NCBI RefSeq assembly: GCF_003634575.1
Contig: NZ_RBLJ01000005.1
Span: 186,001-250,000, forward strand
Length of the DNA: 64,000 nucleotides
Direction: 5' to 3'
Source: Photorhabdus asymbiotica
Lineage (GTDB): Bacteria; Pseudomonadota; Gammaproteobacteria; Enterobacterales; Enterobacteriaceae
The notes under the pieces were generated by a model. It was given only the letters and a program-made list of their open reading frames with translations, did not search any database and was not told the origin of the DNA. A program made the translations under genes and the position numbers. Of this stretch, positions 24,686 through 49,942 are shown piece after piece. How positions within the stretch are numbered: the stretch's first letter is position 1; every line of letters starts with the position of its first letter.

Positions 24686-27218
<2,533 letters not shown>

Positions 27219-27311
27219 AATTGCATTGCTTATTGCATTGCAATTAATAATTAAATTCTAAGTCTTTCAAGAAGCAGGATACTTGATTGTTTTTCCGTTA
27301 CCCATCATACT

Positions 27312-27333
27312 TATGCGCATACCTTTGCGCATA
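27312..27333 (+). promoter_or_regulatory. Probable CcdAB operator
   Basis: The palindrome TATGCGCATA (27312-27321) is followed by a near copy TTTGCGCATA (27324-27333), ending 12 bases before the ccdA start. Two spaced half-palindromes at this place fit binding of the CcdA-CcdB autorepressor complex. Role inferred. Confidence 0.5.
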
Positions 27334-27345
27334 GGAGTAAACACC

Positions 27346-27606
27346 ATGAATACCGTTACCTCTCCCCGTAACAGCATCAAAAGAAGCACCAAAAGAAGCA
27401 CCAACGTGTACCTGACGGCTTCACTGGTCGATAAAGCCCATAGTATGGACATGAATCTCTCAGCAACACTAGATATTCTTCTGGCGCAGGCTATAAAAGC
27501 TAAACAGGATGAGAGAGAGAAAGAGAAAGAAGATATGCAGGCTATGAACATATTCATGGCGAAAGCTGGAATGCTCACAGACGATGAATTTTTCGGGAGC
27601 CTGTAA
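27346..27606 (+). CDS. ccdA: CcdA-family antitoxin
   Basis: An 86-residue antitoxin of a CcdAB system. The N-terminal half is a ribbon-helix-helix DNA-binding domain (STNVYLTASLVDKAHSMDMN, NLSATLDILL), and the charged C-terminal half with the DDEFFGSL tail should wrap the toxin. The ATG at 27346 is chosen because AGGAG lies 8 bases upstream. Its stop overlaps the toxin start (TAATG), the standard coupling for this module. The antitoxin neutralises the DNA-gyrase poison CcdB and represses the operon. Confidence 0.88.
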   Translation: MNTVTSPRNSIKRSTKRSTNVYLTASLVDKAHSMDMNLSATLDILLAQAIKAKQDEREKEKEDMQAMNIFMAKAGMLTDDEFFGSL

Positions 27607-27929
27607 TGCCACAGCAATTTGATGTGTATCGTAATCCATCGGCCAAAACAAACAGACTTTGGCCGTTTTACCTTATTATCCAGAATGATTATTTTGATGA
27701 TTTAACAACAAGGATTATTGTTCCTCTGGTATCTAAAAATGACATTAGCCTCAACCAGAAAAGAATCACCCCTCAGGTGGTCATTAATAATAATAGTTAT
27801 TATATATTTACACCGGCAATAACGTTTCTGGATGCAAAAAAAATCAACAAATCAGATTTTGTATGCAACGTAGCCTCATCCAGAAATGAAATTATCTCAG
27901 CCCTCGATGCCATCATAACGAACACCTGA
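27606..27929 (+). CDS. ccdB: CcdB-family gyrase toxin
   Basis: A 107-residue CcdB: it starts MPQQFDVYRNPSAKTNRLWP like other chromosomal CcdBs, includes the strand PYLIIQNDYF-like segment (FYLIIQNDYFDDL), and reads through to a helix SSRNEIISALDAI. CcdB poisons the GyrA-DNA complex; plasmid F CcdB needs its last three residues (WGI) for killing, and here the protein ends ITNT, so activity should be tested and not assumed. It is coupled to ccdA. The module lies between two direct copies of the ligB 5' region. Confidence 0.88.
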   Translation: MPQQFDVYRNPSAKTNRLWPFYLIIQNDYFDDLTTRIIVPLVSKNDISLNQKRITPQVVINNNSYYIFTPAITFLDAKKINKSDFVCNVASSRNEIISALDAIITNT

Positions 27930-27999
27930 ACCCGCAAAGAGAAGAAAGATAACTAGAACCGTCAGACCCCTTCGTGCGGAGCATGTAAAAAATACCCGC

Positions 28000-28280
<281 letters not shown>

Positions 28281-28336
28281 GTTCAGAGCTGCAATCAACA
28301 ATCTCCGCCACTCGGGTTTTCATCGAAAACAGAGGT

Positions 28337-28372
28337 TTGACAACTTACAAACTTATCATATAAGATAAGTTT
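28337..28372 (+). promoter_or_regulatory. Promoter and operator of the split HigBA module
   Basis: TTGACA (28337-28342) and TATAAG (28359-28364) are 16 bases apart. A perfect inverted repeat, AAACTTATC (28349-28357) and GATAAGTTT (28364-28372), overlaps the -10 and is well placed for autorepression by the antitoxin. Confidence 0.6.
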
Positions 28373-28388
28373 AAGGGCAATATTGAAT

Positions 28389-28834
28389 ATGAACTGGAAC
28401 ATTGAGTTCTATGATGGTGTCGAGGGTGTGATCCTAGATATGCCACCCGGAATTCAGGCACGTATACTAAAACTGCTTGAGCTCATTGAAGAATATGGCG
28501 CTAATCTTGGAGAGCCACACACTAAGCCAATAGGAAAAGGCCTATTCGAGATTCGAGCCAAAGCGCAAGAAGGTATTGGACGCGGATTGTTTTGCTATAC
28601 CCTATGGATTTCAAGATGCATCGCGACGGCAAGGGAGTGAATCCCCGGGAGCATAGCGAACTATGTGACCGGGGTGAGCGAGTGCAGCCAACAAAGAGGC
28701 AACTTGAAAGATAACGGGTATATCTACAAGGTCCAAATATCATTGTCCTTCATGCGTTTATTAAGAAAAACCAGAAGATATCTAAAAAGGATCTTGATCT
28801 CGCTTATGAACGAATGAAAGAGGTTACAAAATGA
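28389..28834 (+). pseudogene. HigB/Gp49-like toxin gene split by an ERIC
   Basis: The 5' part encodes an mRNA-interferase toxin start (WNIEFYDGVEGVILDMPPGI ... GLFEIRAKAQEGIGRGLFCY). An ERIC follows at codon 70, after which the frame resumes as LQGPNIIVLHAFIKKNQKIS and ends at a TGA that overlaps the antitoxin ATG. Removing 125 bases (28599-28723) restores one continuous frame across Cys-Tyr-Leu-Gln-Gly, so the insertion alone killed the gene. An in-frame TTG at 28383 is an alternative start. The toxin should be inactive, leaving the antitoxin as an orphan. Confidence 0.85.
28596..28722. repeat. ERIC element inserted in a toxin gene (127 bp)
   Basis: Complete copy of the CCCCGGG/CCGGGG type. 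The reading frames on each side show that the net gain is 125 bp, consistent with a 123-bp core plus a duplicated TA target. Confidence 0.95.
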
Positions 28835-29109
28835 GTAGCTTAAAGTCTCTAAAATCCAAAGCATTAGCTAACCCAGATGTAAAAGCTGAGTATGATGCGC
28901 TAGAGCCAGAATTCGAACTAATTAATACTCTATTACGCATGCGGCATGCTGCTGGTTTAACTCAAAATCAAGTTGCACAGCGTATGGGAACAAAAGAAGC
29001 GAATATTTCCAGGCTTGAAAAAGGAAATGGAAACCCAACACTTAAGACACTATTGAACTACGCCAAAGCTTGCAATTGTAAACTGCATTTTGGCTTCAAA
29101 ACAACTTAA
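28831..29109 (+). CDS. HigA-like XRE-family antitoxin
   Basis: A 92-residue antitoxin with a central Cro/C1 helix-turn-helix: LLRMRHAAGLTQNQVAQRMG, then EANISRLEKGNGNPTLKTLL. The N-terminal helix (ALANPDVKAEYDALEPEFEL) matches HigA proteins of the HigB-first type. GAAAGAGG precedes the ATG, which overlaps the dead toxin's stop (ATGA). It should still repress its own promoter. Similar HTH residues occur in the fused protein at 15126-15527. Confidence 0.9.
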   Translation: MSSLKSLKSKALANPDVKAEYDALEPEFELINTLLRMRHAAGLTQNQVAQRMGTKEANISRLEKGNGNPTLKTLLNYAKACNCKLHFGFKTT

Positions 29110-29752
29110 TCCAAACGATATGAAAAACATCTTTCGGGGGTTTTTCATATTTGTTTTCTTTTATAGCAGTCTTTCGGGTGAACAACGGAGAGTTAGCAGG
29201 AAAAGCCTCGATACCAAAGCACATAATGATACGATTAGTTAATTTACTAAGTAATATTTTGTTATTGCGAGCTATTAATCAATGATTTAACCAAATATAA
29301 TGACTCAGCCTATCACATATTAATTTTATCGTCCCCTGTCATTACCAAAATAAACCTTCAAATAAATATCAAAATAAAATAACTCCACCAAACAATTTGG
29401 AAAAAAATATTACAACCATCACCCTAGTGATTTTTACTCTTTGCTTTACAGTTAATACTTAGTAAATTAAGTAACATATTTACGTATTAATTAGTAGCCA
29501 TAAATATGTACATTTCCTCTAAATTCCGTCGTTCAAGCCTCATAATTTTAACCTTCATCACTTATCGATAAAAAATAATCTAAAACCAACTACCAAAAAA
29601 TCAATTTAGTATTAACCTAAAGTTATTAGCCGATAACCTCTCTCTAAGTTGCAATATAAAATCAGCTTAACCCGCAAAGGATAGGTTTTATGGCATAAAT
29701 TCCCCTGTGGGTAAAAAGATCAATCCGATATCACCACCATTAGGAGAACAAT
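29110..29752. other. AT-rich intergenic region with a repeated leader
   Basis: About 640 bases with no gene. A short AT-poor stretch near 29130 precedes very AT-rich DNA. From about 29300 on, the sequence resembles the regions upstream of the paralogues at 32907 and 34674. The last 90 bases form the first of four copies of a 5' leader module that ends in AGGAG and an ATG. Confidence 0.55.
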
Positions 29753-30082
29753 ATGAATCAAAATAACGATCCCTCACCAAACATCGATACTGGCAGTAAT
29801 CCTACAAAACAATATTGGCAACCAAACAGGAGTAATCATGCTGATAATAATACGCCTATCGCCTCTACCAGAGGGGCAACCGCCATGTTATTACCAAATG
29901 GCAGAGTGATCGCTTGGGGAAATGACTCCAGTAGTCAAATTCCACCCGACATTGCCCAATTACAAGATATCGTTAGCCTAAGTGCATCAAGACACTCATT
30001 TACCGTACTGCGGGCCGATGGTCAGAGAGTTGGCTGGGGGTCGACTGGTGACAATAAATTACATTATGAATACGACTACTAG
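29753..30082 (+). CDS. Short RCC1-like repeat protein (109 aa)
   Basis: After a polar, Asn-rich head (MNQNNDPSPNIDTGSNPT) come about two RCC1-like blades: ATAMLLPNGRVIAWGNDSSS, IPPDIAQLQDIVSLSA and FTVLRADGQRVGWGS. A working propeller needs about seven blades, so this is a fragment or a minimal relative of the 541-residue protein downstream. It lacks the signal region of that protein. A good AGGAG lies upstream. The head resembles short reading frames upstream of the three later paralogues. Confidence 0.6.
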   Translation: MNQNNDPSPNIDTGSNPTKQYWQPNRSNHADNNTPIASTRGATAMLLPNGRVIAWGNDSSSQIPPDIAQLQDIVSLSASRHSFTVLRADGQRVGWGSTGDNKLHYEYDY

Positions 30083-30086
30083 TTAA

Positions 30087-30461
30087 TCCATTGAGCAGAG
30101 ATTTTACGGTACAGACTGCCTGTGGGTAAGGTCAATCCAATACCACCTTAAATTTAGGAGGGTAATATGAATCCAAACGATTTCTCCTCAAATATAAGTG
30201 CCAGCAATACTCTTATACCCAATGGATTTCAAGATGCATCGCGACGGCAAGGGAGCGAATCCCCGGGAGCATAGATAACTCTGTGACTGGGGTGAGTGAA
30301 CGCAGCCAACAAAGAGGCAACTTGAAAGATGACGGGTATATATAAATGCAATCTGTAATGATGGCCTGCACGGATAACCCGATGCAGAAAATAATCATCT
30401 AAATTAAGGAGCGCCCTTAAAAGGCCAAGGCAATCTGGCCGGGATAGGGTTATCACAAAGA
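30087..30461 (+). other. Leader of the RCC1-like gene, with a leader ORF cut by an ERIC
   Basis: A conserved leader with AGGAGGG precedes an ATG at 30167 whose frame (MNPNDFSSNISASN) runs into an ERIC and stops at 30274 after 35 codons. The two paralogous leaders downstream have the same frame without the ERIC. Past the ERIC come two hairpins, CTGCACGG...CCGATGCAG and GGCCAAGGCAATCTGGCC, before the next gene. Confidence 0.6.
30214..30340. repeat. ERIC element inserted in a duplicated leader (127 bp)
   Basis: Complete copy; the arms mix both sequence types (CCCCGGG on the left, CTGGGG on the right, giving a G-T pair). The paralogous leaders near 32790 and 34550 are empty sites. Confidence 0.95.
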
Positions 30462-32087
30462 ATGAAAATTTTTAATATGCCAACCGGGGAACAATCCCCG
30501 TCAGAATATCCGATGAATACTGAAAAAACGTTCATTAATAGAGTAAAGCAGGGTGTTGGCCGAATAGCGGTTCGCTATCGCCGGTGGTCGGCATGGGTGA
30601 TGTGCGTATCTATAGGGGCGCTTTTTTTCACCTCGGTATTGGCTGCTACTGAATACCCCAGTAAACCAACACCAGACCTAGGGTACCCCGCGACTCCCCC
30701 CTGGGACGCAGAATACATATTCAAATCTCTCGGGCAGCCAATAATCAATGGGAAAGACAACAAGGCCTCCATCACCTCCACTTACACCGCAACCGCCATG
30801 TTATTAACAAATGGCAGAATAGTCGCCTGGGGAGATGAGGGCGGCGGCGGCTCTATACCGCCAGAAATTGCCAAATTACAGGATATCGTCAGCCTGAGTT
30901 CAACAGGTTATGCATTCGCAGCCCTGCGGGCAGACCGTAGCGTGGTCGCTTGGGGAGATGAGAGGTATGGCGGCACTCTTCCAGAAGAAATTGCTAAATT
31001 ACAGGATATTGTCAGCCTGAGTTCAACGAATTATGCTTTCTCTGCCCTACGGGCAGACGGTAGTGTAGTCGCTTGGGGAGATCAGAAATATGGCGGCAAA
31101 TTACCAGCAGAAATTGCTGAATTAAAGGACATTATAAGCATAAATTCAATACATAACCTTTCGGATCATGTCTGTGCAGCCTGGTGGCCAGACCGTAATC
31201 AATTCTATTGCGGAGATGACAACCGTGGCAAACACAAATTCAATGCAGTATATAACTTCACAAATGATACCTTTACCGCCCTTAGGGCAAACGGCAGCGT
31301 GGTTTCTTGGGGAAAAGTCCGAGTTCCGCCCGATATTGCCAAATTACAGGATATTATCAGTCTGAGTGTAATAAATAATACTTTCATCGCCCGGCGAGCA
31401 GACCTCACAGTAGTCACCTGGCCCGGATATTCGATACCGCCTGAAATTGCAAAATGGCAAGATATTGTCAACCTAAGTATAACAACTTATGCTTTAGCCG
31501 CCCTGCGGGCAAACCGCAGCGTAGTCGCTTGGGGACATCAAGACTATGGCGGCCAAGTCCCACCAGAAATCGCCTCATTACGGGATATTATCAGTCTAAG
31601 TGCGACAAATGGCGCTTTCGCCGCTTTGCGTACAGATCGCAGTGTCGTCGCCTGGGGGGAGCCAAGCTCTGGTGGTCAGATTCCACCCGAAATTGCCGCA
31701 TTAAAAGATATTGTCAGCCTATACTCATCAAGAACCACATTCATAGCCCTACGGGCAGACCGCAGTGTGGTCTCCTGGGGTACTATCAGTGTCCCTCCTG
31801 AGGTTGCCAAATTAAAGGATATCGTCAGCCTGAGTACAACTGATCTTGATGATTCCTCACGAGGTCATTATGCTTTCGCGGCTCTACGAGCAAATCGTAG
31901 CGTGGTCGCTTGGGGGTTCAAAGAGCTTAATATCCAGATACCACCTGGAATAACCCAACTACAAGATATCATCAGCCTAAGTGCATCCAGCAGCGCATTC
32001 ACCGTCTTACGGGCAAATGGTCAAAGATTAGCCTGGGATCTGTTGGATATGGGAGACAATATAGTACATAGCGAATATGATGATTGA
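30462..32087 (+). CDS. Secreted RCC1-like repeat protein (541 aa)
   Basis: The first 85 residues are shared with the two 303-residue proteins downstream: a basic stretch, then a transmembrane or signal segment (WVMCVSIGALFFTSVLAA), then LGYPATPPW and GQPIINGKDN. The remainder holds about ten RCC1-like blades of 45-55 residues with the pattern AALRADRSVVAWGD..YGG and PPEIAKLQDIVSLS. RCC1-type propellers bind partner proteins or DNA; bacterial secreted versions are often effectors or adhesins, and the target here is unknown. The start is uncertain: no clear ribosome-binding site precedes 30462, and Met18 (30513) would also leave a signal peptide. A terminator-like hairpin follows. Confidence 0.75.
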   Translation: MKIFNMPTGEQSPSEYPMNTEKTFINRVKQGVGRIAVRYRRWSAWVMCVSIGALFFTSVLAATEYPSKPTPDLGYPATPPWDAEYIFKSLGQPIINGKDNKASITSTYTATAMLLTNGRIVAWGDEGGGGSIPPEIAKLQDIVSLSSTGYAFAALRADRSVVAWGDERYGGTLPEEIAKLQDIVSLSSTNYAFSALRADGSVVAWGDQKYGGKLPAEIAELKDIISINSIHNLSDHVCAAWWPDRNQFYCGDDNRGKHKFNAVYNFTNDTFTALRANGSVVSWGKVRVPPDIAKLQDIISLSVINNTFIARRADLTVVTWPGYSIPPEIAKWQDIVNLSITTYALAALRANRSVVAWGHQDYGGQVPPEIASLRDIISLSATNGAFAALRTDRSVVAWGEPSSGGQIPPEIAALKDIVSLYSSRTTFIALRADRSVVSWGTISVPPEVAKLKDIVSLSTTDLDDSSRGHYAFAALRANRSVVAWGFKELNIQIPPGITQLQDIISLSASSSAFTVLRANGQRLAWDLLDMGDNIVHSEYDD

Positions 32088-32126
32088 TCCCTTGTTATTA
32101 TGAATGACTAAAAAACACGAAAACCA

Positions 32127-32156
32127 AGGCTGAGCCATAATTCCTCGGTTCAGCCT
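32127..32156 (+). terminator. Terminator-like hairpin after the RCC1-like gene
   Basis: AGGCTGA (32127-32133) pairs with TCAGCCT (32150-32156), followed by ATCTTTTATT. A similar hairpin recurs after the first 303-residue gene and, reversed, beside the RCC1 remnant at 54445. Confidence 0.6.
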
Positions 32157-32735
32157 ATCTTTTATTCCATTTAAAATATCAACTTACCTACCCCCTGTTA
32201 TTACCAATATCAACTTTCAAATCACGTTCAAAAGACAATAACTTTATGAAATAGTTTGAAAAATAAATATTAAAAATCTCAAAATAACTAATTCTTTATA
32301 AACCATATAGAGTGAAAATTACGACAACAACTTAACAATCTTTTATTTCCTGCCTAACAACTAATTGTTAGTTAATCAAGTTACTCATTCAAGTAATAAT
32401 AGCCATAAAGATGTATATCCCCTCTAAATTATTCTGCCTAAATCTCATTATTATTACTCTTATCATTTATCTGTAAAAATGACCTTAAAAACCACCATCA
32501 ACAATCAACTTTAGCGTTAACCAATAGTTATAGACTGATAATCTTTTATTATCACATTCTGTTAATTTTTTGCTTTCTCTATTATCTTTTTTTTAAAGAA
32601 TTGCTAAACTTATTTATGTCTTATTAGCCGCAATAGAAAATCAGCGTAATCCGCAAGGGATTAAGTTTTACGGTATAAGCTCGCTTGTGGGTAAAAAAGG
32701 TCAATCCAATACCACCTTAAATTTAGGAGCGTAAT
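32157..32735. other. AT-rich region and leader upstream of the first 303-residue gene
   Basis: No gene. The DNA is strikingly AT-rich and repeated after the gene. The final 95 bases are another copy of the leader module (CCGCAAGGGAT, then GTGGGTAAAAA, TCAATCCAATACCACC and AGGAGCGTAAT). Confidence 0.5.
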
Positions 32736-32822
32736 ATGAATCCAGACGATTTCTCCTCAAACATAAGTGCCAGCAATTACTCTCATATGAATGCAATCTG
32801 TAATGATGGCCTGCACGGGTAA
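32736..32822 (+). CDS. Possible 28-residue leader peptide
   Basis: An ATG with AGGAGCG upstream opens a 28-codon frame (MNPDDFSSNISASNYSHMNA and 8 more) ending in the left part of a hairpin, CTGCACGGGTAACCCGATGCAG-like, 85 bases before the next gene. The paralogous leader at 34505 has a 17-codon version. It may be a translated leader, or the relic of a gene head like that at 29753; I cannot tell which. Confidence 0.4.
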   Translation: MNPDDFSSNISASNYSHMNAICNDGLHG

Positions 32823-32906
32823 CCCGATGCAGAAAATAATCATCTAAATTAAGGAGCGCCCTTAAAAGGCCAAAGCAATCTGGCCGGAATAGGGTTATCA
32901 CAAAGA

Positions 32907-33818
32907 ATGAAAATTTCTAACCTGCCAACCGGGGAACAATCCCCGTCAGAATATCCGATGAATACTGAAAAAGCGTTCATCAATAGAGTGAAGCAGAATG
33001 TTGGTCGAAATCGCCGGTGGTCGGCATGGGTGATGTGCGCGTCTATCGGGGCGCTTTTTTCCACCTCGGTATTGGCCGCTACTGAATGCCCTAAAGTACC
33101 AGTAAAAGACCTAGGGTACCCTGCAACTCCTCCCTGGAACCCAGAAGTCCTATTCAGAGCTCTCGGGCAGCCAATAATCAATGGGAAAGACAACCAAGGT
33201 AAGCCGGTTCATTACCCAGCAAGGGGGTCCACTAACTTAGTGGGTGTCTTTCCACCAGTAGTTGATTATGATTTTCCAACGCCGACAGGCGATTTAAAGT
33301 TAAAAGACGGTCTGTTTTGGGTTAGCGCCCCAAACAGAATCTTCAAGGTTCCACATGTGGTCACAGGTAAGTATCACTGTAAGATGATTGCCAAACGTAA
33401 AGATGGAGCGCCCGGGCGAGCCACAGCAACCCTTGAGACAGATGCTGTCGTTGCAAATCATATCATCCACCGATTTCAAGGAGACAAAAATGTTCTGGAA
33501 TCTAGCGTGACAGACCTGGTTTATACAGTAACCTGCCGAGGGACCGGATTTTCATGGGAGCGTAAACCCGAAGAGAAATTTGAATGGGAAAGTGTGTGGG
33601 ACAACTCGGTGCCGTTAATTAGAATGCAAGACCTTTGTAATTGGGTTCATAATGTTGCTTTCTGGACGCCACCAAGCGACAATCCGAATGATCGGTTTAA
33701 AGACCCGGCTGTCCTAAGGCCGATGAGTGCGGAAAGTGCTGACTTGAAGAAATCAGATGCCAACGCTACCCCAGATAATCTATCCGGGACGAAAAGAGCG
33801 GATAGCGGCAATAAATAA
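32907..33818 (+). CDS. Secreted paralogue of the fimbrial tip N-terminal domain (303 aa), copy 1
   Basis: The N-terminus is the shared signal region (WVMCASIGALFSTSVLAA, cut before TECPK). The body aligns with residues about 55-280 of the predicted fimbrial tip protein at 40997-42337: FKVPHVVTGKYHC against FKVPRVVSGSYEC, VLESSVTDLVYTVTCRG against IAEGRISDLDFDVSCRG, and FSWERKPEEKFEWES against FSWQRNPDEKVEFDS. Similarity ends at KDPAVLRP (KDPVTVLDP in the tip protein), where the pilin-like domain would start; here a polar, probably disordered tail follows. Four or more Cys may form disulphides in the periplasm. Without the pilin domain it cannot join a fimbria by donor strand exchange. It may be a free binding domain or a silent cassette. 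Confidence 0.7.
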   Translation: MKISNLPTGEQSPSEYPMNTEKAFINRVKQNVGRNRRWSAWVMCASIGALFSTSVLAATECPKVPVKDLGYPATPPWNPEVLFRALGQPIINGKDNQGKPVHYPARGSTNLVGVFPPVVDYDFPTPTGDLKLKDGLFWVSAPNRIFKVPHVVTGKYHCKMIAKRKDGAPGRATATLETDAVVANHIIHRFQGDKNVLESSVTDLVYTVTCRGTGFSWERKPEEKFEWESVWDNSVPLIRMQDLCNWVHNVAFWTPPSDNPNDRFKDPAVLRPMSAESADLKKSDANATPDNLSGTKRADSGNK

Positions 33819-33833
33819 AAATCGTTAACAGAA

Positions 33834-33857
33834 CAGCCGGGGAACAATCCCCGGTTG
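33834..33857 (+). terminator. Hairpin after the first 303-residue gene
   Basis: CCGGGGA and TCCCCGG pair around ACAA shortly after the stop. The same hairpin lies inside the first codons of these genes, and the downstream copy still reads TAGEQSPVE in one frame, so it is the relic of another gene head, perhaps reused as a terminator. Confidence 0.5.
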
Positions 33858-33869
33858 AGCACGCAATAA

Positions 33870-34504
33870 TTGTTATTAGGAGTGACTAAAAAACACGAAA
33901 ACCAAGGCTAAACCATAATACCCGGTTCAACCCATCGCTTATTCCGTTTTAAATATCAACTCACCCACCCGCTGTTATTACCAATAATCAACTGCCAAAT
34001 AAATCTCAAAAGACAATAACTTTACGAAATAGTTTGAAAAATAAATATTAAAAATCTCAAAATAACTAAGTTTTTATAAACCATATAAAGCGAAAATTAC
34101 GACAAAAACTTAACAATCCCTTATTTTCTTTCTTACAATTAACTGTTAGTTAATTAAGTTACTCATTCAAGTAATAATAGCCCAGAATATGTATATCTCC
34201 TTTAAATTCTTCTGCCTAAATCTCATTATTATCACTCTTGTCATTTAGCTGTGGGAAATAATCTTAAAACAATCAACTGTAGCGTTAACCTACAGTTATC
34301 AACCGATAACTATTAGTTATCACATTCTTTTAATCTTTTTATATTTCTATTACCTTTTTCTTAAAGAGTTGCTAAACTTATTTATGTCTTAATTAGTCGC
34401 AATAGAAAATCAGCGTAATCCGCAAGGGATTCAGTTCTACGGTATAAGCTCCCCTGTGGGTAAAAAAGGTCAATCCAATACCACCTTAAATTTAGGAGGG
34501 TAAT
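33870..34504. other. AT-rich region and leader upstream of the second 303-residue gene
   Basis: No gene; a diverged copy of 32100-32735, ending with the leader module and an AGGAGGG site. Confidence 0.5.
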
Positions 34505-34558
34505 ATGAATCAAGACGATTTCTCCTCAAACATAAGTTCCAGCAATACCCTTATATGA
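34505..34558 (+). CDS. Possible 17-residue leader peptide
   Basis: MNQDDFSSNISSSNTLI, preceded by AGGAGGGTAAT. It corresponds to the frames at 30167 and 32736, but stops earlier. The strong ribosome-binding site contrasts with the absence of one before the main gene at 34674. Confidence 0.4.
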   Translation: MNQDDFSSNISSSNTLI

Positions 34559-34673
34559 ATGCAATCTGTAATAACGGCCTGCACGGGTAATCCGATGCAG
34601 AAAATAATCATTTAAAGAAGGAGGACCCTTAAAAGGCCAATGCAATCTGGCCGGGACAGGGTTATCACAAAGA

Positions 34674-35585
34674 ATGAAAATTTTTAATATGCCAATCGGG
34701 GAACACTCCCCATCAGAGTATCCGATGAACACGGAAAAAACGTTCATCAACAGAGTGAAGCAGAATGTTGGTCGAAATCGCCGGTGGTCGGCATGGGTAA
34801 TGTGCGCGTCTATCGGGGCGCTGTTTTCCACCTCAGTATTGGCCGCTACTGAATGCCCTAAAGTACCAGTACAAGACCTAGGGTACCCTGCGACTCCTCC
34901 CTGGAACCCAAAAGTCCTATTCAGAGCTCTCGGGCAGCCAATAATCAATGGGAAAGACAACCAAGGTAAGCCGGTTCATTACCCAGCAAGGGGGTCCACT
35001 AACTTAGTGGGTGTCTTTCCACCAGTAGTTGATTATGATTTTCCAACGCCGACCGGCGATTTGATGTTAAAAGACGCCAAGTTTTGGGTTAGAGCACAAA
35101 ACAGAATCTTCAAGGTTCCACATGTGGTCACAGGTATGTATCACTGTAAGATGGTTGCCAAACGTAAAGATGGAGCGCCTGGGCGAGCCACAGCAAACCT
35201 TTATACGGATGCTATTGTTGTAAATCATGATACCCACAAGTTCCAGGGAGACCAAAACGTCATGGAATCTAGCGTGACAGACCTGGTTTACACAGCAACC
35301 TGCAAAGGGGCTGGATTTTCATGGGAACGTAAACCCGAAGAGAAATTTGAATGGGAAAGTAAGTGGGAAAACGGGGTGCCGTCAATTGAAATGCTAGACA
35401 ACTGCCATTGGATTCATAATGTCGCTTTCTGGACGCCGCCAGACGATAATCCAAATGATAAGTTTAAAGACCCGGCCGTCCTGAGACCGACGAGTGCGGA
35501 AAATGCTAACCCGAAGAAGTCAGTCCCCCATGATAACCCAGATAATTTCCCCTGGAAGAGAAAAGCAGATAGCAATAATCAATAA
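34674..35585 (+). CDS. Secreted paralogue of the fimbrial tip N-terminal domain (303 aa), copy 2
   Basis: Same length and plan as the gene at 32907, with the shared signal region, the GQPIINGKDN and RGSTNLVGVFPPVVDYDFPT segments, and the cysteine pattern kept. Differences concentrate in the second half (for example FWVRAQNRIF against FWVSAPNRIF, and in the tail), as expected for a surface-exposed or receptor-contacting domain under selection, or for a relaxed duplicate. It also ends just after KDPAVLRP with a polar tail. No ribosome-binding site is evident before the ATG at 34674; Met18 is an alternative start. Confidence 0.7.
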   Translation: MKIFNMPIGEHSPSEYPMNTEKTFINRVKQNVGRNRRWSAWVMCASIGALFSTSVLAATECPKVPVQDLGYPATPPWNPKVLFRALGQPIINGKDNQGKPVHYPARGSTNLVGVFPPVVDYDFPTPTGDLMLKDAKFWVRAQNRIFKVPHVVTGMYHCKMVAKRKDGAPGRATANLYTDAIVVNHDTHKFQGDQNVMESSVTDLVYTATCKGAGFSWERKPEEKFEWESKWENGVPSIEMLDNCHWIHNVAFWTPPDDNPNDKFKDPAVLRPTSAENANPKKSVPHDNPDNFPWKRKADSNNQ

Positions 35586-35877
35586 AGATCATTAATAAAA
35601 CAGCCGGGGAGCAATCCCCGGTTGAATATCCAAGCAATACAGATAATAGACCGAGTTATCATTCATCTTATTTGCTATTAATCTGAAATATCAGAATATT
35701 TAATTCCAGTTATTATACTGATTTGCTAATAAAAATTAAAAACGATAACTCAAAACTTCAAATGAAAAATCAACAACCAATATCGCTCACACTTAATCAT
35801 ATTATCCGCTTACTTGTTCATGTTACTCTTTCAATTACTTTCATTCGCAAAATATCTCAACTTATGTGATATTTTAT
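35586..35877. other. Relic of another gene head, then AT-rich DNA
   Basis: A CCGGGGA/TCCCCGG hairpin at about 35604-35622 lies in a frame reading TAGEQSPVEYPSNTDN, which copies the start of the upstream paralogues (PTGEQSPSEYPMNTEK) but lacks the rest. The remaining 230 bases are AT-rich without a gene. Confidence 0.6.
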
Positions 35878-36315
35878 TTAATGATGTAATGTAGTATTAA
35901 CGACTATATCTAGCTTTCTATTTAACTGATGCAAAGCCAATTCAACAACTTCAACCTTTGATGAATGTTCAACATCAAGAAGCCGATCAATCTGCGGCCC
36001 CTTTTGTCCCAGCCGTCGAGCAAGATCGGCTTTGCGTGTTCCTGTTTCTACCATTGCATTATGCAATGCCACTTTCATTACGACGAGAATAGGAAGAGTG
36101 ACGATGTATTCACCTGCCTCCAACATGGATGCTTCAGGTATAGGCCGACGTTTGTCAATTTCTATAGAAATAGCCGTAACCAACCCATCAATAGATTCTA
36201 GAAGAGCTTCGTCAACTGAGTCACCGACTGAGTTGAATAAGGGAAGATCACGACAACTTGCCACATAACTTCCTGTCTCTTCGTCATATTCTAGTTTTAT
36301 AGGATAATTAAACAT
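35878..36315 (-). CDS. hicB: HicB-family antitoxin
   Basis: A 145-residue HicB. The N-terminal partial RNase H-like fold has the typical LEYDEETGSYVASCRDLP and SVDEALLESIDGLVTAISI; the C-terminal helix-turn-helix (TRKADLARRLGQKGPQIDRL) binds the operator. It blocks HicA. The gene lies 31 bases after hicA with AGAGAGG upstream, so both are in one operon, toxin first as is usual for this family. Confidence 0.92.
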   Translation of the reverse strand: MFNYPIKLEYDEETGSYVASCRDLPLFNSVGDSVDEALLESIDGLVTAISIEIDKRRPIPEASMLEAGEYIVTLPILVVMKVALHNAMVETGTRKADLARRLGQKGPQIDRLLDVEHSSKVEVVELALHQLNRKLDIVVNTTLHH

Positions 36316-36346
36316 AGTACCTCTCTTTAAGATAGATAACCGGAAC

Positions 36347-36529
36347 TTAAAGCCCCAGATCCTTCATTATTTTCTTCCTCAATGGTTCAGGAATCTCTTT
36401 GGAACCATGATCGGGGAAAACCGACGATTTACCGTTTATGGATACCTTTCGGTGGCTTCCTCCACCCCTAGCCTTCTCTATTAGAACTCCTTGAGAAATT
36501 AGCCATCGGCGGAACTCACTGTATTTCAT
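36347..36529 (-). CDS. hicA: HicA-family mRNA interferase toxin
   Basis: A 60-residue HicA with the double-stranded-RNA-binding-like fold. The catalytic His is in GGGSHRKV, and the pattern SVFPDHGSKEIPEPLRKKIM is classic. The start at 36529 is chosen because AAGGAGG sits directly upstream; the longer frame to 36595 adds an improbable Cys-rich head. HicA cleaves mRNA independently of ribosomes. No damage is visible, so this is one of the intact modules in the window. Confidence 0.92.
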   Translation of the reverse strand: MKYSEFRRWLISQGVLIEKARGGGSHRKVSINGKSSVFPDHGSKEIPEPLRKKIMKDLGL

Positions 36530-36752
36530 CCACACCTCCTTTTCGACCAAGCAATCATGACACATAAAACAGCAAATACAACATTTTTGTTTCATTTAAC
36601 AACAGTTATGATAACTCATAGAGCAAAATTCTAAGCAAAGAACTCCCCCCTAACGATACAAAATACCCATTAGCAATCCTTCGCCAACAAAATTTCGGCT
36701 GAAATGCATCGGCAACGCGACTGTGTGAGCGGGTATGTGTATACTGTTATAA

Positions 36753-37427
<675 letters not shown>

Positions 37428-37481
37428 ACCAAGTTTCAGTATCATGCCCAGTCATTTCTTTACCTGTGGAGTCGCACACAT

Positions 37482-37757
37482 ATGGCACGCGTAACTGTTC
37501 AAGACGCTGTAGAAAAAATTGGTAACCGTTTTGACCTGGTGTTGGTCGCCGCTCGTCGAGCACGTCAACTACAAACAGGCGGTAAAGACCCGCTGGTTGC
37601 GGAAGAGAACGATAAAGTGACCGTTATCGCTCTGCGTGAAGTGGAAGAGGGGCTGATTAACGGTAAGATCCTGGATGTCCGTGAGCGCCAGGAACAACAA
37701 GAGCAGGAAGCAGCAGAAATGCAAGCGGTTTCTGCTATCGCGGAAAGTCGTCGTTAA
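37482..37757 (+). CDS. rpoZ: RNA polymerase omega subunit
   Basis: Omega (91 aa, E. coli 91), which helps fold and assemble beta-prime. [20 protein letters not shown] and the helix [15 protein letters not shown]-like segment are nearly invariant. It lies 54 bases after gmk and 17 before spoT. Confidence 0.98.
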
Positions 37758-37774
37758 TCCACGGTAGGTCTGCC

Positions 37775-39892
37775 TTGTATCTGTTCGAAAGCCTGAATCT
37801 GCTTATCCAGAAATACCTGCCTGAGAGTCAAATTGAACTCCTCAAGCAGGCTTACTCTGTTGCGCGGGATGCTCATGAAGGGCAAACCCGCACCAGTGGC
37901 GAACCCTACATTACGCACCCGGTTGCGGTTGCTTGTATTCTGGCCGAGATGCGTCTCGACCATGAAACACTGATGGCCGCTTTGTTGCATGATGTGATTG
38001 AAGACACGCCCGCCACCTTTCAAGATATCGCCCAACCTTTCGGCCCGGTGGTCGCCGGGTTAGTTGAAGGGGTTTCCAAGCTTGATAAGTTGAATTTTCG
38101 CGATAAAAAAGAGGCACAAGCAGAGAACTTTCGCAAAATGATTATGGCGATGGTGCAAGATATCCGTGTCATTTTGATCAAACTGGCAGACCGTACCCAT
38201 AATATGCGCACTCTCGGGGCGTTACGTCCAGATAAGCGCCGTCGTATCGCCCGGGAAACGTTAGAAATTTACAGCCCCCTGGCTCATCGTCTGGGTATTC
38301 ACCACCTGAAAACTGAGTTAGAGGAACTCGGGTTTGAAGCCCTCCACCCTAACCGCTATCGTGTTATCAAAGAGGTGGTAAAAGCGGCCCGTGGCAACCG
38401 TAAAGAGATGATCCAGAAAATTCTGTCTGAAATTGCCGGCAGGCTGGCCGAAGCCAATATTGAGTGCAAAGTCAGCGGCAGGGAAAAACATCTCTATTCT
38501 ATCTACCGGAAAATGCACCTCAAAGAGCAGCGTTTCCATTCCATTATGGATATTTATGCCTTTCGGGTCATCGTTAACAATGTTGATATCTGCTATCGCG
38601 TTTTGGGGCAGATGCACAGCCTGTATAAACCCCGCCCTGGTAGAGTCAAAGATTACATTGCTATCCCCAAAGCTAACGGCTACCAATCGTTGCATACTTC
38701 CCTGATTGGTCCTCACGGCGTACCCGTTGAAGTCCAGATTCGCACCGAAGATATGGAACAAATGGCTGAAATGGGCGTCGCGGCACACTGGACTTACAAA
38801 GAACAAGGTGAATCCGGTACAGCGGCCCAAGTCCGTGCTCAGCGCTGGATGCAAAGTCTGCTGGAATTACAGCAAAGTGCCGGCAACTCTTTTGAATTTA
38901 TCGAAAGCGTTAAATCTGATCTGTTTCCTGATGAGATTTACGTTTTCACCCCGAAAGGGCGTATCGTCGAGCTACCCGCGGGCTCTACCCCGGTTGACTT
39001 TGCTTACGCTGTACACACCGATATTGGTCATGCCTGTGTCGGTTCGCGAGTTGATCGCCAGCCCTATCCACTATCTCAATCGCTGACCAACGGCCAGACA
39101 GTGGAAATTATTACCGCGCCGGGCGCGCGACCAAACGCAGCCTGGCTGAACTTTGTCGTCAGTTCAAAAGCGCGCGCCAAAATTCGCCAATTGCTAAAAA
39201 ACCTTAAGCGCGAAGATTCAATTGGGCTAGGCCGCCGTTTGCTAAATCACGCATTGGGTAACGGGAAAAAACTGGTTGATATTCCACCGGAAAATATCAA
39301 TAAAGAGTTAACGAGAATGAAACTCGTGACAATCGATGATCTGCTGGCTGAAATCGGGCTTGGCAATACCATGAGTATCGTCGTCGCCCGCAACCTGCTA
39401 GGTGCGCAAGAAAATACCGCCAGCACCAGTAGTCATAACAGCGGAGCACGTAAATTACCCATCAAAGGCGCTGACGGTGTACTTATTACGTTTGCCAAAT
39501 GCTGTCGGCCCATCCCCGGCGATCCGATTATCGCCCATATCAGCCCCGGTAAAGGGTTGGTTATCCACCATGAATCCTGTCGTAATATTCGTGGCTATCA
39601 GAAAGAGCCTGAGAAATTTATGGCGGTAGAGTGGGATAAAGAGATTAACAGCGATTTTATTGCTGAAATAAAAGTGGATATGTTTAACCATCAAGGGGCG
39701 CTGGCAAATTTGACCGCCGCCATTAACGCGGTAAATTCCAATATTCAGAGCATGAATACAGAAGAGAAAGATGGCCGGGTTTACTGTGCTTTTATCCGGC
39801 TGACCACTAAAGACCGTATTCAATTAGCAAATATTATGCGCAAAATCCGAATTATGCCGGATGTGATGCGCGTCAGCCGTAACAGAAACTAA
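37775..39892 (+). CDS. spoT: Bifunctional (p)ppGpp hydrolase/synthetase SpoT
   Basis: SpoT (705 aa; E. coli 702) controls the stringent alarmone. The HD hydrolase domain includes LLHDVIEDTPAT and ADRTHNMRTLGALRPDKR; the weak synthetase domain includes RFHSIMDIYAFRVIV; then come the TGS domain (DEIYVFTPKGRIVELPAG), a zinc-finger-like region (AKCCRPIPGDPIIAH) and a C-terminal ACT domain. Translation starts at TTG, as in E. coli. In E. coli trmH and recG follow; here the fimbrial island comes next. Confidence 0.98.
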   Translation: MYLFESLNLLIQKYLPESQIELLKQAYSVARDAHEGQTRTSGEPYITHPVAVACILAEMRLDHETLMAALLHDVIEDTPATFQDIAQPFGPVVAGLVEGVSKLDKLNFRDKKEAQAENFRKMIMAMVQDIRVILIKLADRTHNMRTLGALRPDKRRRIARETLEIYSPLAHRLGIHHLKTELEELGFEALHPNRYRVIKEVVKAARGNRKEMIQKILSEIAGRLAEANIECKVSGREKHLYSIYRKMHLKEQRFHSIMDIYAFRVIVNNVDICYRVLGQMHSLYKPRPGRVKDYIAIPKANGYQSLHTSLIGPHGVPVEVQIRTEDMEQMAEMGVAAHWTYKEQGESGTAAQVRAQRWMQSLLELQQSAGNSFEFIESVKSDLFPDEIYVFTPKGRIVELPAGSTPVDFAYAVHTDIGHACVGSRVDRQPYPLSQSLTNGQTVEIITAPGARPNAAWLNFVVSSKARAKIRQLLKNLKREDSIGLGRRLLNHALGNGKKLVDIPPENINKELTRMKLVTIDDLLAEIGLGNTMSIVVARNLLGAQENTASTSSHNSGARKLPIKGADGVLITFAKCCRPIPGDPIIAHISPGKGLVIHHESCRNIRGYQKEPEKFMAVEWDKEINSDFIAEIKVDMFNHQGALANLTAAINAVNSNIQSMNTEEKDGRVYCAFIRLTTKDRIQLANIMRKIRIMPDVMRVSRNRN

Positions 39893-39914
39893 ACTGAATA
39901 GATTGCCCTGTTAT

Positions 39915-40340
39915 TCAGAGAACCTGCTTCTGATTATTATTTTCTGCACCGGGTAACCCGTGCAACTCAGCCGGTGAACAGCCAACAGTGCTATTCACCG
40001 CAAACCCACAAGACAGCATCAAAGATGACGACACATCACCCTGGTTCTCAAAAAGTAGACCAACCAATACGGAATCAATCTCATCCAATAGGTGGCCTAA
40101 CCAACCCTCCTCCCCTACACCAAACATCAACACCAGCCCGATAACAATAAACAACAGTGGCACGATCCAGGTTCGACACCAATAAGCTAATAGCATACGG
40201 GGATACAAAGAGTGGCGAATCTTATTCCCCAGTAACAACCCACCGACAGTAAGTAACACGACAATGATAACCAGTACTACCCGACTTATCAGCATCCCAT
40301 AGGGCATCCCACACAGAATCGATAAAAATTCGTCCTCCAT
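39915..40340 (-). CDS. Small membrane protein at the end of the fimbrial operon
   Basis: I do not recognise the family. The protein (141 aa from 40340) has two hydrophobic helices, MLISRVVLVIIVVLLTVGGL and WIVPLLFIVIGLVLMFGVG, separated by a basic stretch, then a polar C-terminal tail of about 65 residues. The start is uncertain: ATGs at 40370 and 40340 are in frame; I prefer 40340 because GGCGGG lies 6 bases upstream. It comes right after the GrlA-like regulator on the same strand and appears to be the last gene of the operon. Confidence 0.5.
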   Translation of the reverse strand: MEDEFLSILCGMPYGMLISRVVLVIIVVLLTVGGLLLGNKIRHSLYPRMLLAYWCRTWIVPLLFIVIGLVLMFGVGEEGWLGHLLDEIDSVLVGLLFENQGDVSSSLMLSCGFAVNSTVGCSPAELHGLPGAENNNQKQVL

Positions 40341-40375
40341 TATGTCCCGCCAGACAACCACATGTGTCATATACT

Positions 40376-40867
40376 TTAGGAAATAAACGGACCACAAGCG
40401 CGTTGCAAAAACCAAGTGCGCATATGATGAATCCGTGCTGATGTCAGGGAACTGGCCGACTTCACCGTTTTTGTCACCAGTATCTGGTTCCTCTGGGGCA
40501 TAGGTTTAGCGACTGCCGTAACAATCAACATCAGACGCCGACTCCTGCGTTTTTCACGAAAAAAGACTTTTTCACAGGAAATCACATCACGCCGCTCATT
40601 GTAGATATAATTCATCACATCCCTTGCCCGGCGTTCTGACACCCGAAACACCTGACTAATTTCATTTTTGGTAAATCCGCGCCCCTTCAATAATCCCCAA
40701 TACGCGACCGCCAGGTACAACGGTGTATCATTCAAGTGAGACAAGCAGACAGGCAGACGAAAATCCCCATGATTACTCTGCTTGCCGGTAATCGTCTGAC
40801 TGCCAGGCAAATCGGTCTGGTTGCCGCTCATCTGAAGCAGCACTGAATCATTAACATTGATTGTCAT
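40376..40867 (-). CDS. CaiF/GrlA-family transcriptional regulator
   Basis: A 163-residue protein whose central segment LPVCLSHLNDTPLYLAVAYW and following FTKNEISQVFRVSERRARDV is the helix-turn-helix of the CaiF/GrlA family. GrlA activates the LEE island of enteropathogenic E. coli, and related proteins sit at the ends of fimbrial operons where they act on fimbrial or motility genes. The C-terminal third is very basic (RREKRRSRRLM type). It lies on the fimbrial strand, 130 bases after the tip-protein gene. In the Photorhabdus mad operon a regulator occupies a comparable place. Confidence 0.75.
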   Translation of the reverse strand: MTINVNDSVLLQMSGNQTDLPGSQTITGKQSNHGDFRLPVCLSHLNDTPLYLAVAYWGLLKGRGFTKNEISQVFRVSERRARDVMNYIYNERRDVISCEKVFFREKRRSRRLMLIVTAVAKPMPQRNQILVTKTVKSASSLTSARIHHMRTWFLQRACGPFIS

Positions 40868-40996
40868 TTTACTCTCCCCTGGTGACTAACTGGTCAATCT
40901 GTTACCACATGAGAAATGAAATAGTGTGATTTATTGAGATGAAGCACTCGGGCGACTAAGCCCATGCCATATTTAAATACCCTGCCATCGTAGGCG

Positions 40997-42337
40997 TTAT
41001 CGCACGACTAACGTTACGTTCATAGTGGTCTGAAATTCACCAGAAGTACCAGGATCTAACGCCTTTACTTGCCAAAGTTGCACATTAAATCGGTTTTGAG
41101 AGACATAGGTGTTTGGCGTATTACCCACAGTAAAATACAGAACATCCGCCGGGTTAGTTGGAGGACCAAATTTTACTGGCCTGTCTTTCACGTTTGGCGC
41201 CGCCAACTGAGTATTCCCGCCTATCACATTCGGCACCACCTTTATCCTCAACGCGTTATCGAAGTTAGGCACCACGATACTTTCATTATTATCAGCTAGC
41301 TGTGAGGCAGAAAACTGCAAAGTGGCCACTCCGCCAGTACTATTCTTATCGCTTACAGTGCATATAATGTTCATAGGAAAAAATGGGGTATACTCGTCGC
41401 TGAGTGAATTTGTTGGAAGCAGTGCTGGATATGGCCCGAGCGACCGAAGAACCTCTCCCATCGGCACTACACCCACAAAAGCGCCTGGGGTGCCAAAATC
41501 TAAGCCGCAAACCGGCGGGTCCAGTACTGTTACCGGGTCTTTGATAGGCGGAAAGCGTGGTTTGGACCACGACATGAACTCCTCTCCATCAGCCAAAATA
41601 CTTAAAATTGGTGCGTTATCGTCACTATCAAATTCGACTTTTTCATCAGGATTCCGCTGCCATGAAAAATTTACCCCACGACAGGACACATCAAAATCGA
41701 GGTCGCTTATCCTTCCCTCTGCTATATTCTTATCATCCTGATTATTAGGATTTTCCGGCTGGAAATATAATGGTTGAGAAAGATTTTCATTGGGGTATGG
41801 CTTATCAAGACTCACCGTAAAGTGTTGAATGGCTGTTCCTTCAATAGGATTCTTAGTATGGTAATAATGAGATTTGGCTATAATTGTACATTCGTAACTG
41901 CCTGACACCACTCTAGGGACTTTAAAAATTTCCCCGCGCCCTGCTCTGAGCTGGAACCGGACATCCTCCAGAAATTTCTGATCATACGAGGTGGTTTTAC
42001 TCGCTATCCTCTTCCTATAAAACGGAAACACATCTAATGTCGCTTTACCCGCTGCCGGGTAAGTGATTACTCCATCACTGCGCTTTACCATCCGCTCAGG
42101 CCCCAAGACTTTCAAGGTCGTATCAGCGTTCCAATTTAGTGACTCGGCAAACACTGAGGGAGAAGAAAAGATAGCCACCACGGATAGGCATATCATTGCC
42201 ACCCATATCGGCCACTTACGACAACAAACCGCCATCCAACCAATATCCTGTTTTAGCTTGTTAATAAACGTCTTCTTCGTATTCATCGGCTGCCCAACCG
42301 GGAGTAACTTCCCGGTTGCTATATTAGAAATTTTCAT
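40997..42337 (-). CDS. Predicted two-domain fimbrial tip protein (mad-type operon)
   Basis: A 446-residue secreted protein. Its long N-terminal signal region (MKISNIATGKLLPVGQPMNT, then a membrane segment ending SSPSVFA) resembles those of the three island genes at 30462, 32907 and 34674. Residues about 55-280 form the domain shared with the 303-residue paralogues. From VCGLDFGTPGAF on, the sequence looks like a pilin: alternating strands and a terminal FQTTMNVTLVVR strand suitable for donor exchange. A two-domain tip adhesin is the best reading. GGAGTGATATCAACGA upstream supports the start. It follows the usher by 147 bases containing a three-copy tandem repeat and a leader similar to those in the island. 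Confidence 0.7.
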   Translation of the reverse strand: MKISNIATGKLLPVGQPMNTKKTFINKLKQDIGWMAVCCRKWPIWVAMICLSVVAIFSSPSVFAESLNWNADTTLKVLGPERMVKRSDGVITYPAAGKATLDVFPFYRKRIASKTTSYDQKFLEDVRFQLRAGRGEIFKVPRVVSGSYECTIIAKSHYYHTKNPIEGTAIQHFTVSLDKPYPNENLSQPLYFQPENPNNQDDKNIAEGRISDLDFDVSCRGVNFSWQRNPDEKVEFDSDDNAPILSILADGEEFMSWSKPRFPPIKDPVTVLDPPVCGLDFGTPGAFVGVVPMGEVLRSLGPYPALLPTNSLSDEYTPFFPMNIICTVSDKNSTGGVATLQFSASQLADNNESIVVPNFDNALRIKVVPNVIGGNTQLAAPNVKDRPVKFGPPTNPADVLYFTVGNTPNTYVSQNRFNVQLWQVKALDPGTSGEFQTTMNVTLVVR

Positions 42338-42389
42338 TCGTTGATATCACTCCATCCCGGCCAGATTACACTCACCTTTCAGAGGTTCC

Positions 42390-42435
42390 CCTCTAATTAA
42401 CTATGCCTCTAATAACTATGCCTCTAATAACTATG
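42390..42435. repeat. 15-bp tandem repeat, three copies, before the tip gene
   Basis: CCTCTAATAACTATG occurs twice exactly (42406-42420, 42421-42435) and once with an extra T (42390-42405). It lies in the gap between usher and tip gene. Confidence 0.9.
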
Positions 42436-42484
42436 GTTTTCCGCATCAGGTTATCAGCGCAGATCCACAACATTCCGCCTCATC

Positions 42485-45351: not shown

Positions 45352-46146
45352 TTAACCACTGCCAGATACAGTAATAGATCGACTCTCTTCATCGGTGCCT
45401 AAGCCGAATTCATCAATGGCACGCCACGATATCGTGACATTATTACCAGGAAGTACTTTGCCCACCGGCAGTGACCAGCTCTGCTGACCAAATGGCGGCA
45501 CCATCCTAAATAAATCCTGCTCCGGTACGGCAAACGAACTTACATGTAAAGCCTGCAATGTGATCCAAAACGGTGACGGATTAGTCAGCGTTACAACACT
45601 CTCTTTTACTGACGCGCTTAATTGTTTCACTGCGCCGGCAACGCCCTCTTTTGGCAATCCTTCAGGACGATAGAACACCTTCACCGCTAAAGCCGTCGTC
45701 ATTTTCACCTTGCCTGAGAAACCTTTAGATACCGATGATGGTTTCTCAGAAGGCAACATACGCACATTGAGAAAGAACAGAGATTCCCGATCCTTAGGAA
45801 AATCCCCACCAGTACGAAGGATTTTCAGCACCTGCCGTTCATGCGCATCCACCTTGGCAATAGGCGGAATCACGATAAATGGCGCCTTAATATCCAGCGG
45901 TAAACCGGTGGCAGGGTCCAATTCCCGTACCGTTGACTGAATCAGATAATTGCTGTCGCTGTTATTAATGAATGTTGAAGGAACCCCATTGTTGAATGAT
46001 TCAAGGTAAAGCACACGGGCATCATTGATATATAATGCCCCCATCAGAGCCTCTTCCGCCCTCAGTGGCAAAACCGGTAATATCATTGCCAGAGCGCATA
46101 ACACAGACGTCACCCTCTGCTTTATTGAAACCTTACGTTCCGCCAT
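45352..46146 (-). CDS. Periplasmic fimbrial chaperone (third of the operon)
   Basis: A 264-residue PapD-like chaperone. It has a signal peptide (cut near LPLRAEEA) and two immunoglobulin-like domains: the first with the subunit-binding edge LKILRTGGDFPKDRESLFFL, the second with FYRPEGLP and PSPFWITLQ. It differs from the other two chaperones and may serve the tip protein. The ATG at 46146 has GGAAGAG upstream and gives a normal signal. It lies 28 bases after the preceding chaperone. Confidence 0.88.
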   Translation of the reverse strand: MAERKVSIKQRVTSVLCALAMILPVLPLRAEEALMGALYINDARVLYLESFNNGVPSTFINNSDSNYLIQSTVRELDPATGLPLDIKAPFIVIPPIAKVDAHERQVLKILRTGGDFPKDRESLFFLNVRMLPSEKPSSVSKGFSGKVKMTTALAVKVFYRPEGLPKEGVAGAVKQLSASVKESVVTLTNPSPFWITLQALHVSSFAVPEQDLFRMVPPFGQQSWSLPVGKVLPGNNVTISWRAIDEFGLGTDEESRSITVSGSG

Positions 46147-46174
46147 GTGATGCTCTTCCAATCTCAAAATATAC

Positions 46175-46912
46175 TCAGCCAGCCTGTAACGTACCGCTCT
46201 GTAACTTACTCACCCCGCCGATATCAGTGATCATCGACCATTCCACCTTACTTCCAGCTTTGCCCGCCAAGGGAAAAGTGGTCTGGCCGAAAGGGACCAA
46301 TATTGACGGGGCTTTGTCAAAATCCACCGCCTTGCCGTCAAATTTCAGTTGAGCAAAAGTCTGGTAATACGGCGTTGGGTTGGTCACTACCACACTATTG
46401 CCTGATTGTGTAAACGTCAGCCGACCCCGGGCCTGTTCCGGTGTCATCGGCAGCTTATCCGGCCGGTAGATAAGTTTAATGTTCATCCCCAACGAGATAG
46501 ACAGCGACGCGCCAATCTCATCTTGTTTGCCGCTGCTATTTTCCTGGCCGTTATCAACTGTTTTCTTCGCTGGGATCGCATTAATCCGAAAACGAAACAG
46601 AGACTCACGATCATCAGGAAAATCACCGCCGGTACGCATAACCCGCATCACATTCAAGCTATTGCCCTCCATACGGAACAACGGGGGCAACACAGTAAAC
46701 TCCGATGAACGAGTATTTGGGTTATCCCACGGCGTCACCGCAGCTTGTACCAGATAGACCTCTTCGCCTGAATTTTGCAGTGAGATGCTTTGCACCTTGT
46801 CGCCCTGCTGATAAATAATGCGTGTCTTCCTCAACATAAGACCTGCGTGTGCTGATGACGACGCCACAACCGCCCATATCCCCAGCATCCCCATGACTAT
46901 CAGCTTTTTCAT
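46175..46912 (-). CDS. Periplasmic fimbrial chaperone (second of the operon)
   Basis: A 245-residue PapD-like chaperone: signal MKKLIVMGMLGIWAVVASSS, mature start GLMLRKTRIIYQQGD, edge strand NVMRVMRTGGDFPDDRESLF and the C-domain signature KLIYRPDKLP, NPTPYYQTFAQLK. A GTG three codons upstream is possible. It follows a minor fimbrin by about 60 bases. Two adjacent chaperones before the usher is unusual and suggests separate clients. Confidence 0.9.
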   Translation of the reverse strand: MKKLIVMGMLGIWAVVASSSAHAGLMLRKTRIIYQQGDKVQSISLQNSGEEVYLVQAAVTPWDNPNTRSSEFTVLPPLFRMEGNSLNVMRVMRTGGDFPDDRESLFRFRINAIPAKKTVDNGQENSSGKQDEIGASLSISLGMNIKLIYRPDKLPMTPEQARGRLTFTQSGNSVVVTNPTPYYQTFAQLKFDGKAVDFDKAPSILVPFGQTTFPLAGKAGSKVEWSMITDIGGVSKLQSGTLQAG

Positions 46913-46970
46913 ATATCCCACTTCATCTCAGACATTCCTCCTCAAATACACCCGGCTTATAACGTTTTAT

Positions 46971-47648: not shown

Positions 47649-47705
47649 TTAACTCTCCGCTCCCCCCCTAATTCCCCATTTTTATCATCCGTGATAAACC
47701 ACATC

Positions 47706-49927: not shown

Positions 49928-49942
49928 AAAACCACATAAACG

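Follow-up and report, generated by a model that had tools for sequence, protein, structure and literature searches.

In Photorhabdus asymbiotica, the receptor-binding domain of a fimbrial tip adhesin appears to be encoded also as separate proteins. The stretch of DNA analysed here (the window) comprises 64,000 nt, positions 186,001-250,000 of contig NZ_RBLJ01000005.1 in assembly GCF_003634575.1. Two genes on its plus strand, A (32907-33818) and B (34674-35585), each encode a 303-residue protein, as an earlier, preliminary description of this DNA had reported. Both proteins contain a domain found in T, a putative two-domain tip adhesin of 446 residues encoded on the minus strand at 40997-42337, and both lack its C-terminal half. 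On balance, A and B are likely to be the receptor-binding domain of T in intact, exported and free-standing form, and are probably lectin-like. They resemble functional proteins with an evolution of their own, and not a silent store for the pilus gene.

A domain in common with the tip protein

Protein A consists of a leader (approximately residues 1-57), an adhesin-like domain (residues 77-268) and a polar tail; B is 82% identical to it. In T, the N-terminal domain (residues 69-269) is followed by a C-terminal half with a glycine at position -14 from the end. A is 36% identical to T across T residues 1-245 (E 3e-33), and B is 30% identical across T residues 1-271 (E 1e-31). The similarity to T proposed in the preliminary description is real; it does not begin at about residue 55, as was proposed, since the leader is included. 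The likeness of the leader alone is uninformative about the tip, because the same leader is found in an RCC1-repeat protein (R), which is 77% identical to the A-type head across 101 residues. In the second of the motifs assigned to both copies, B has CKG in place of CRG.

In an alignment without leaders, comprising 40 domains from 12 genomes (28 stand-alone copies and 12 T sequences), 21 columns are invariant, including those of FSWxR, GxYxC and two cysteines. Within the P. asymbiotica genome, only A, B, T and the head of R match at E<=1. No Pfam or NCBIfam family scores above its cut-off for A, B or T, and in PHROGs neither A nor T had a match at E<=0.01, and R had one weak match, to a family of unknown function. 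A sequence search of the PDB with the domain profile and the T profile yielded no match at E<=1. In its predicted fold A is similar to fimbrial receptor-binding domains; the scores are moderate and tied with those of unrelated folds. Among the non-fimbrial proteins that score near the fimbrial ones are a cannula protein, a viral chemokine-binding protein and a protein from Thermotoga. The tip reading frames of CRCIA-P01 (L063) and P. tasmaniensis (L073) begin near the second methionine of the leader, and the start in this family might lie some 17 residues later.

The copies stop at the boundary before the C-terminal half of T, as the preliminary description had noted. After KDPA there is only a polar tail, which in A has 35 residues and a predicted local distance difference test score (pLDDT) under 50. 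A glycine at position -14 is a mark of chaperone-usher subunits. All 14 T sequences have it (the 12 genomes plus P. akhurstii and P. heterorhabditis, the T of the latter being truncated N-terminally by the end of the locus), and none of the 28 copies does. Given that, by reading, only two of the four pilin-type proteins of the window have this glycine, it supports the subunit nature of T and does not prove it. A second beta domain is predicted for the C-terminal half, with two invariant cysteines among 10 sequences. This half has no Pfam match and no credible PDB sequence match, and hhalign found no match to the pilins of the window (0.1%), the alignments being shallow.

One alternative is that A and B are partners or regulators of the same fimbria: a periplasmic modulator of assembly, a mask for the tip, or an anti-adhesin that competes for the receptor and releases cells. 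That they lie near the operon in each of the 12 genomes, and have domain and leader in common with the tip, would fit such a role. However, they have neither the C-terminal half nor the glycine, and the domains of T and the copies are separated by approximately 1.4 substitutions per site over the whole domain, so the receptor need not be common to both. We regard this role as unlikely, albeit the least unlikely of the alternatives. Free-standing binding domains, one of two options in the preliminary description, remain the best reading given the common domain, the fold resembling receptor-binding domains at moderate scores, the hydrophobic leader, the missing C-terminal half, and reading frames that are intact and constrained.

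Conservation and exchange

Each of the 12 Photorhabdus genomes, P. asymbiotica included, carries T together with two or three copies of the stand-alone type, 28 in total. Gene order is the same in all of them: the copies with RCC1-repeat genes are followed by gmk, rpoZ and spoT and then by the last three genes of the fimbrial operon. The RCC1 genes of the array are present in 11 of the 12; the P. tasmaniensis contig begins just before the first copy, and the P. bodei array is split over two contigs. All 28 copies are complete, intact open reading frames with starts of their own. A single TAA flagged in some of them is the stop codon of the copy itself, located close to where the alignment ends; the coordinates were verified for several. 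P. akhurstii and P. heterorhabditis contribute four further intact reading frames, in genomes where broken copies would escape detection. Outside the genus, the domain was found in none of 292 genomes of the family (from a sample of 295, the three matches all being Photorhabdus), and the 14 loci recovered when the genome collection was scanned are all from Photorhabdus.

Export was scored by a crude hydropathy rule for a hydrophobic segment before the domain. By this rule 23 of 32 copies have a leader, 20 of these with an even number of cysteines. Eight of the nine copies without a leader have an odd number; these signal-less copies occur in P. khanii, P. bodei, P. thracensis and genome G006 (two each) and in CRCIA-P01 (one).

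Constraint was examined by comparing nonsynonymous and synonymous rates (pN/pS). In pairs with P. asymbiotica, the nonsynonymous rate is the lower (P<0.05) in five of five pairs for A and in three of five for B, where constraint is weak in the other two. A 229-residue signal-less copy is constrained in two of six pairs (P ~0.001, both involving G006). The group formed by P. khanii, P. bodei, P. thracensis and G006 goes against a uniform picture of constraint. Here T has a pN/pS above 1 in six of six pairs (P<0.05 in three), part of the P. khanii difference being a block swap, and a 224-residue copy has a nonsynonymous excess in three of six pairs (P<0.05), with pN/pS above 3 in three pairs with P. 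khanii; spoT in the same group gives 0-0.05. Positive selection in this group is a lead only, its values coming from 54 comparisons made without correction and with pairs that share branches.

These data bear on a second alternative, that the copies, as truncated duplicates in a region rich in repeats, are hardly constrained and amount to genomic debris. The nearby decayed unit, the high ratios of the 224-residue copy and the weak constraint on B in two pairs would be expected of debris. The intactness of every copy in the 12 genomes, the constraint on A, on most pairs of B and on two pairs of the 229-residue copy, and the invariant columns of the domain nonetheless make this explanation improbable.

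Exchange between the tip gene and the copies was examined across species, in one set of 12 genomes and not among strains within one species; no gene-conversion tract between 40997-42337 and the copies was found. Firstly, for the 28 pairs of T and a copy from one genome, uninterrupted identity in the domain reaches 9-15 bp, which is no longer than in 308 other-genome pairs (mean 11.7, maximum 21 bp). Secondly, DNA identity is 0.46-0.52 in the same genome against means of 0.46-0.51 in other genomes, and in 60-nt windows the margin of a genome's own copy over the best foreign one never goes beyond 0.09. Thirdly, T and the copies form separate clades (Shimodaira-Hasegawa-like approximate likelihood ratio test, 99) in trees of the whole domain and of each half. 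Fourthly, head identity is 0.65 within a genome (n=16) and 0.63 between genomes (n=154). The orthologues of A and B in six other species are full-length, independent and, by the hydropathy rule, secreted proteins without exchange with the tip gene, a pattern that the preliminary description had set against its own proposal of recombination.

In four pairs among P. asymbiotica, P. luminescens, P. caribbeanensis and P. namnaonensis, identity is 97-99% for the N-terminal domain of T, 83-86% for its C-terminal half, 78-88% for A and 87-92% for B. The tip is not generally more conserved than the copies, because the N-terminal domain of the P. asymbiotica T is only 74% identical to that of P. australis and 73% to that of P. 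noenieputensis, below A (81%) and B (84%) there. In the P. khanii T (locus L068, 17010-18374, minus strand), some 20 codons of the N-terminal domain form a block that is unlike close relatives and approximately 80% like the T of six other genomes, and that resembles no copy. This block would represent tip variation through exchange between species.

The other option of the preliminary description, that A and B are silent cassettes storing alternative binding domains for copying into the tip gene in the manner of pilS and pilE, is thus very improbable: T has a leader and upstream DNA in common with A and B (72%), conversion occurs among the copies, and the tip domain varies between species groups, yet identical runs, 60-nt windows, half trees and head identities rule out such exchange in the 12 genomes, and the sole block swap noticed in T matches other T genes.

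Exchange among the free-standing copies themselves was observed. Across seven species, regions 2 and 3 of the domain place A and B in orthologous groups, with supports of 99/99 and 100/100. In windows spanning approximately residues 61-130, the A and B of P. asymbiotica are 97-100% identical to each other, while its A and that of P. luminescens are 76-81% identical; within the domain, uninterrupted identity between A and B extends to 142 bp at most. The near-identical stretch of about 60 codons, corresponding to approximately residues 58-128 of A (33078-33290, ends approximate), is, as judged from these identities, a conversion tract. Recent head exchange between A, B and R was considered in six species and rejected, as same-genome and other-genome identities are alike (R-A 0.897 and 0.894, R-B 0.900 and 0.901, A-B 0.916 and 0.911). 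In the head tree, which is weakly supported, A and B are not separated. In these genomes, the copies vary through tandem duplication and mutual gene conversion, and not through conversion with the tip gene.

Origin and rearrangement of the array

The DNA unit of B (33870-35625) is 88% identical to the unit at 32092-33858. A segment at 32811-32906 (plus strand), immediately upstream of A, is common to A, B and R and, more weakly, to the usher-T intergenic region. Leader and upstream DNA together are 72% identical between T and A across 130 bp, and between T and B across 152 bp. The segment contains a 22-base hairpin, CTGCACGGGTAACCCGATGCAG, with four occurrences in the genome at up to two mismatches: before R (30366-30387), before A (32811-32832), before B (34579-34600), and within the terminal part of the last operon gene (39944-39965). 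An Rfam scan of 27000-43000 gave no match at the gathering score. Duplication from the operon is favoured because of the likeness of the upstream DNA to the usher-T intergenic region and the hairpin inside the last operon gene; the probable direction is from tip to copy. It appears that a duplicate of the 5' part of the tip gene, comprising the intergenic region, leader and N-terminal domain, was placed beyond gmk-rpoZ-spoT, where A and B lie outside the operon and on the opposite strand. Clades and synteny suggest that it was established before the sampled species split.

R (30462-32087, plus strand) is an RCC1-repeat protein whose residues 1-101, the leader and the start of the A domain, are A-like, as is at least ~120 bp of upstream DNA. 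An A-type head with the first domain residues is fused to an RCC1 body in seven of 14 species, namely P. asymbiotica, P. luminescens, P. akhurstii, P. australis, P. caribbeanensis, P. namnaonensis and P. noenieputensis. A motif filter on the 12 genomes retained 23 RCC1-type proteins longer than 380 residues. All six with an A-type head score a signal, and 16 of the 17 without one do not, the seventeenth apparently scoring in its repeat part. On this comparison, R is a second rearrangement product, in which the fused head and upstream DNA give the RCC1 body a predicted signal peptide. A short open start upstream of A (32736-32830) resembles, by eye, the first codons of the RCC1 genes in the array (MNPD..FS). 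This start gives the impression that insertion of A interrupted an RCC1 gene.

The setting of A and B is repeat-rich. On one side lie R and the decayed unit (~29.3-30.1 kb), identified by sequence comparison as a remnant of another array unit that includes a 109-residue RCC1 fragment (29333-30082, plus strand). On the other, between the array and gmk, is a pair of genes named hicAB-like by eye (35878-36595), which is complete, shortened or undetected depending on the genome. Elsewhere in the window, an open reading frame at 116-1162 looks by eye like the repeat portion of a protein of the filamentous-haemagglutinin type.

Possible function and known systems

T is encoded beside the usher and chaperones of a mad-like chaperone-usher operon on the minus strand. 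The usher gene (PapC by domain match; 42485-45235) lies directly upstream of T. The stretch at 45352-50560 carries three chaperone genes of the PapD type along with three pilin genes that match Pfam Fimbrial and one pilin-like gene that does not. A CaiF/GrlA-type regulator gene (40376-40867, minus strand) lies downstream of T, and a phage-integrase-type recombinase gene (50679-51392) adjoins the pilin-like gene at the other end of the operon. Inverted repeats of at least 14 were absent from 49500-51800, a looser search of 50401-51800 gave only short weak ones, and an invertible promoter was not located. Photorhabdus lives in worms and kills insects, and its mad (maternal adhesion) fimbriae were reportedly described by Somvanshi in 2010 and 2012. 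The operon order and the adjacent recombinase gene presumably fit the mad locus, a likeness only, and the operon of T probably encodes a nematode-colonisation pilus. In two papers mad is presented as a fimbria switched by promoter inversion and required for the nematode partnership (PMC5333078, PMC5585154). Stand-alone copies are not reported in the titles and passages found on mad and Photorhabdus, and among the matches listed for free-standing fimbrial domains nothing is relevant by title.

Because A and B have no C-terminal half for pilus assembly, they are most likely soluble, in the periplasm or outside the cell; they would not be built into a pilus via donor-strand exchange. They are probably glycan-binding, and might act on the class of nematode or insect surface recognised by the tip, or on one that has since drifted. 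The signal-less copies of some species suggest that the family works in two locations, or exits the cell by another route. It is tempting to speculate that a domain of a symbiosis pilus has been freed as genus-wide diffusible binders, exported and signal-less, whose binding face is diversified by conversion between copies while the tip is held apart, and which tune attachment to nematode or insect without the pilus. This wider scenario is a tentative one, less probable than the reading of A and B as free-standing domains.

Tip adhesins are usually considered useful only once assembled into a pilus. By keeping the lone binding domain beside a probable nematode-colonisation pilus, this genus makes it possible to test directly whether adhesin domains serve in symbiosis as soluble lectins, as competitors or as signals. 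The cassette proposal is corrected at the same time, since exchange is observed among the free copies and not with the tip.

A and B differ from the two-domain tip adhesins MrkD, UcaD/UclD, F17-G and Abp1D in lacking the C-terminal half and in lying outside the operon, and the PDB search described above retrieved none of these by sequence. The silent cassettes of pilS/pilE and vls are similar in having several copies near an expressed surface gene and conversion among them. Donors of that kind are incomplete copies without a start of their own, whereas the Photorhabdus copies are intact reading frames with starts and leaders, and have no tracts in common with the tip gene. The PLL lectins of Photorhabdus differ in fold, being seven-bladed beta-propellers, and are alike in the presence of several homologues. 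They provide a precedent for the signal-less copies: PLL proteins have no recognised signal peptide, and PLL2 and PLL3 are reported in the extracellular fraction (PMC12203525).
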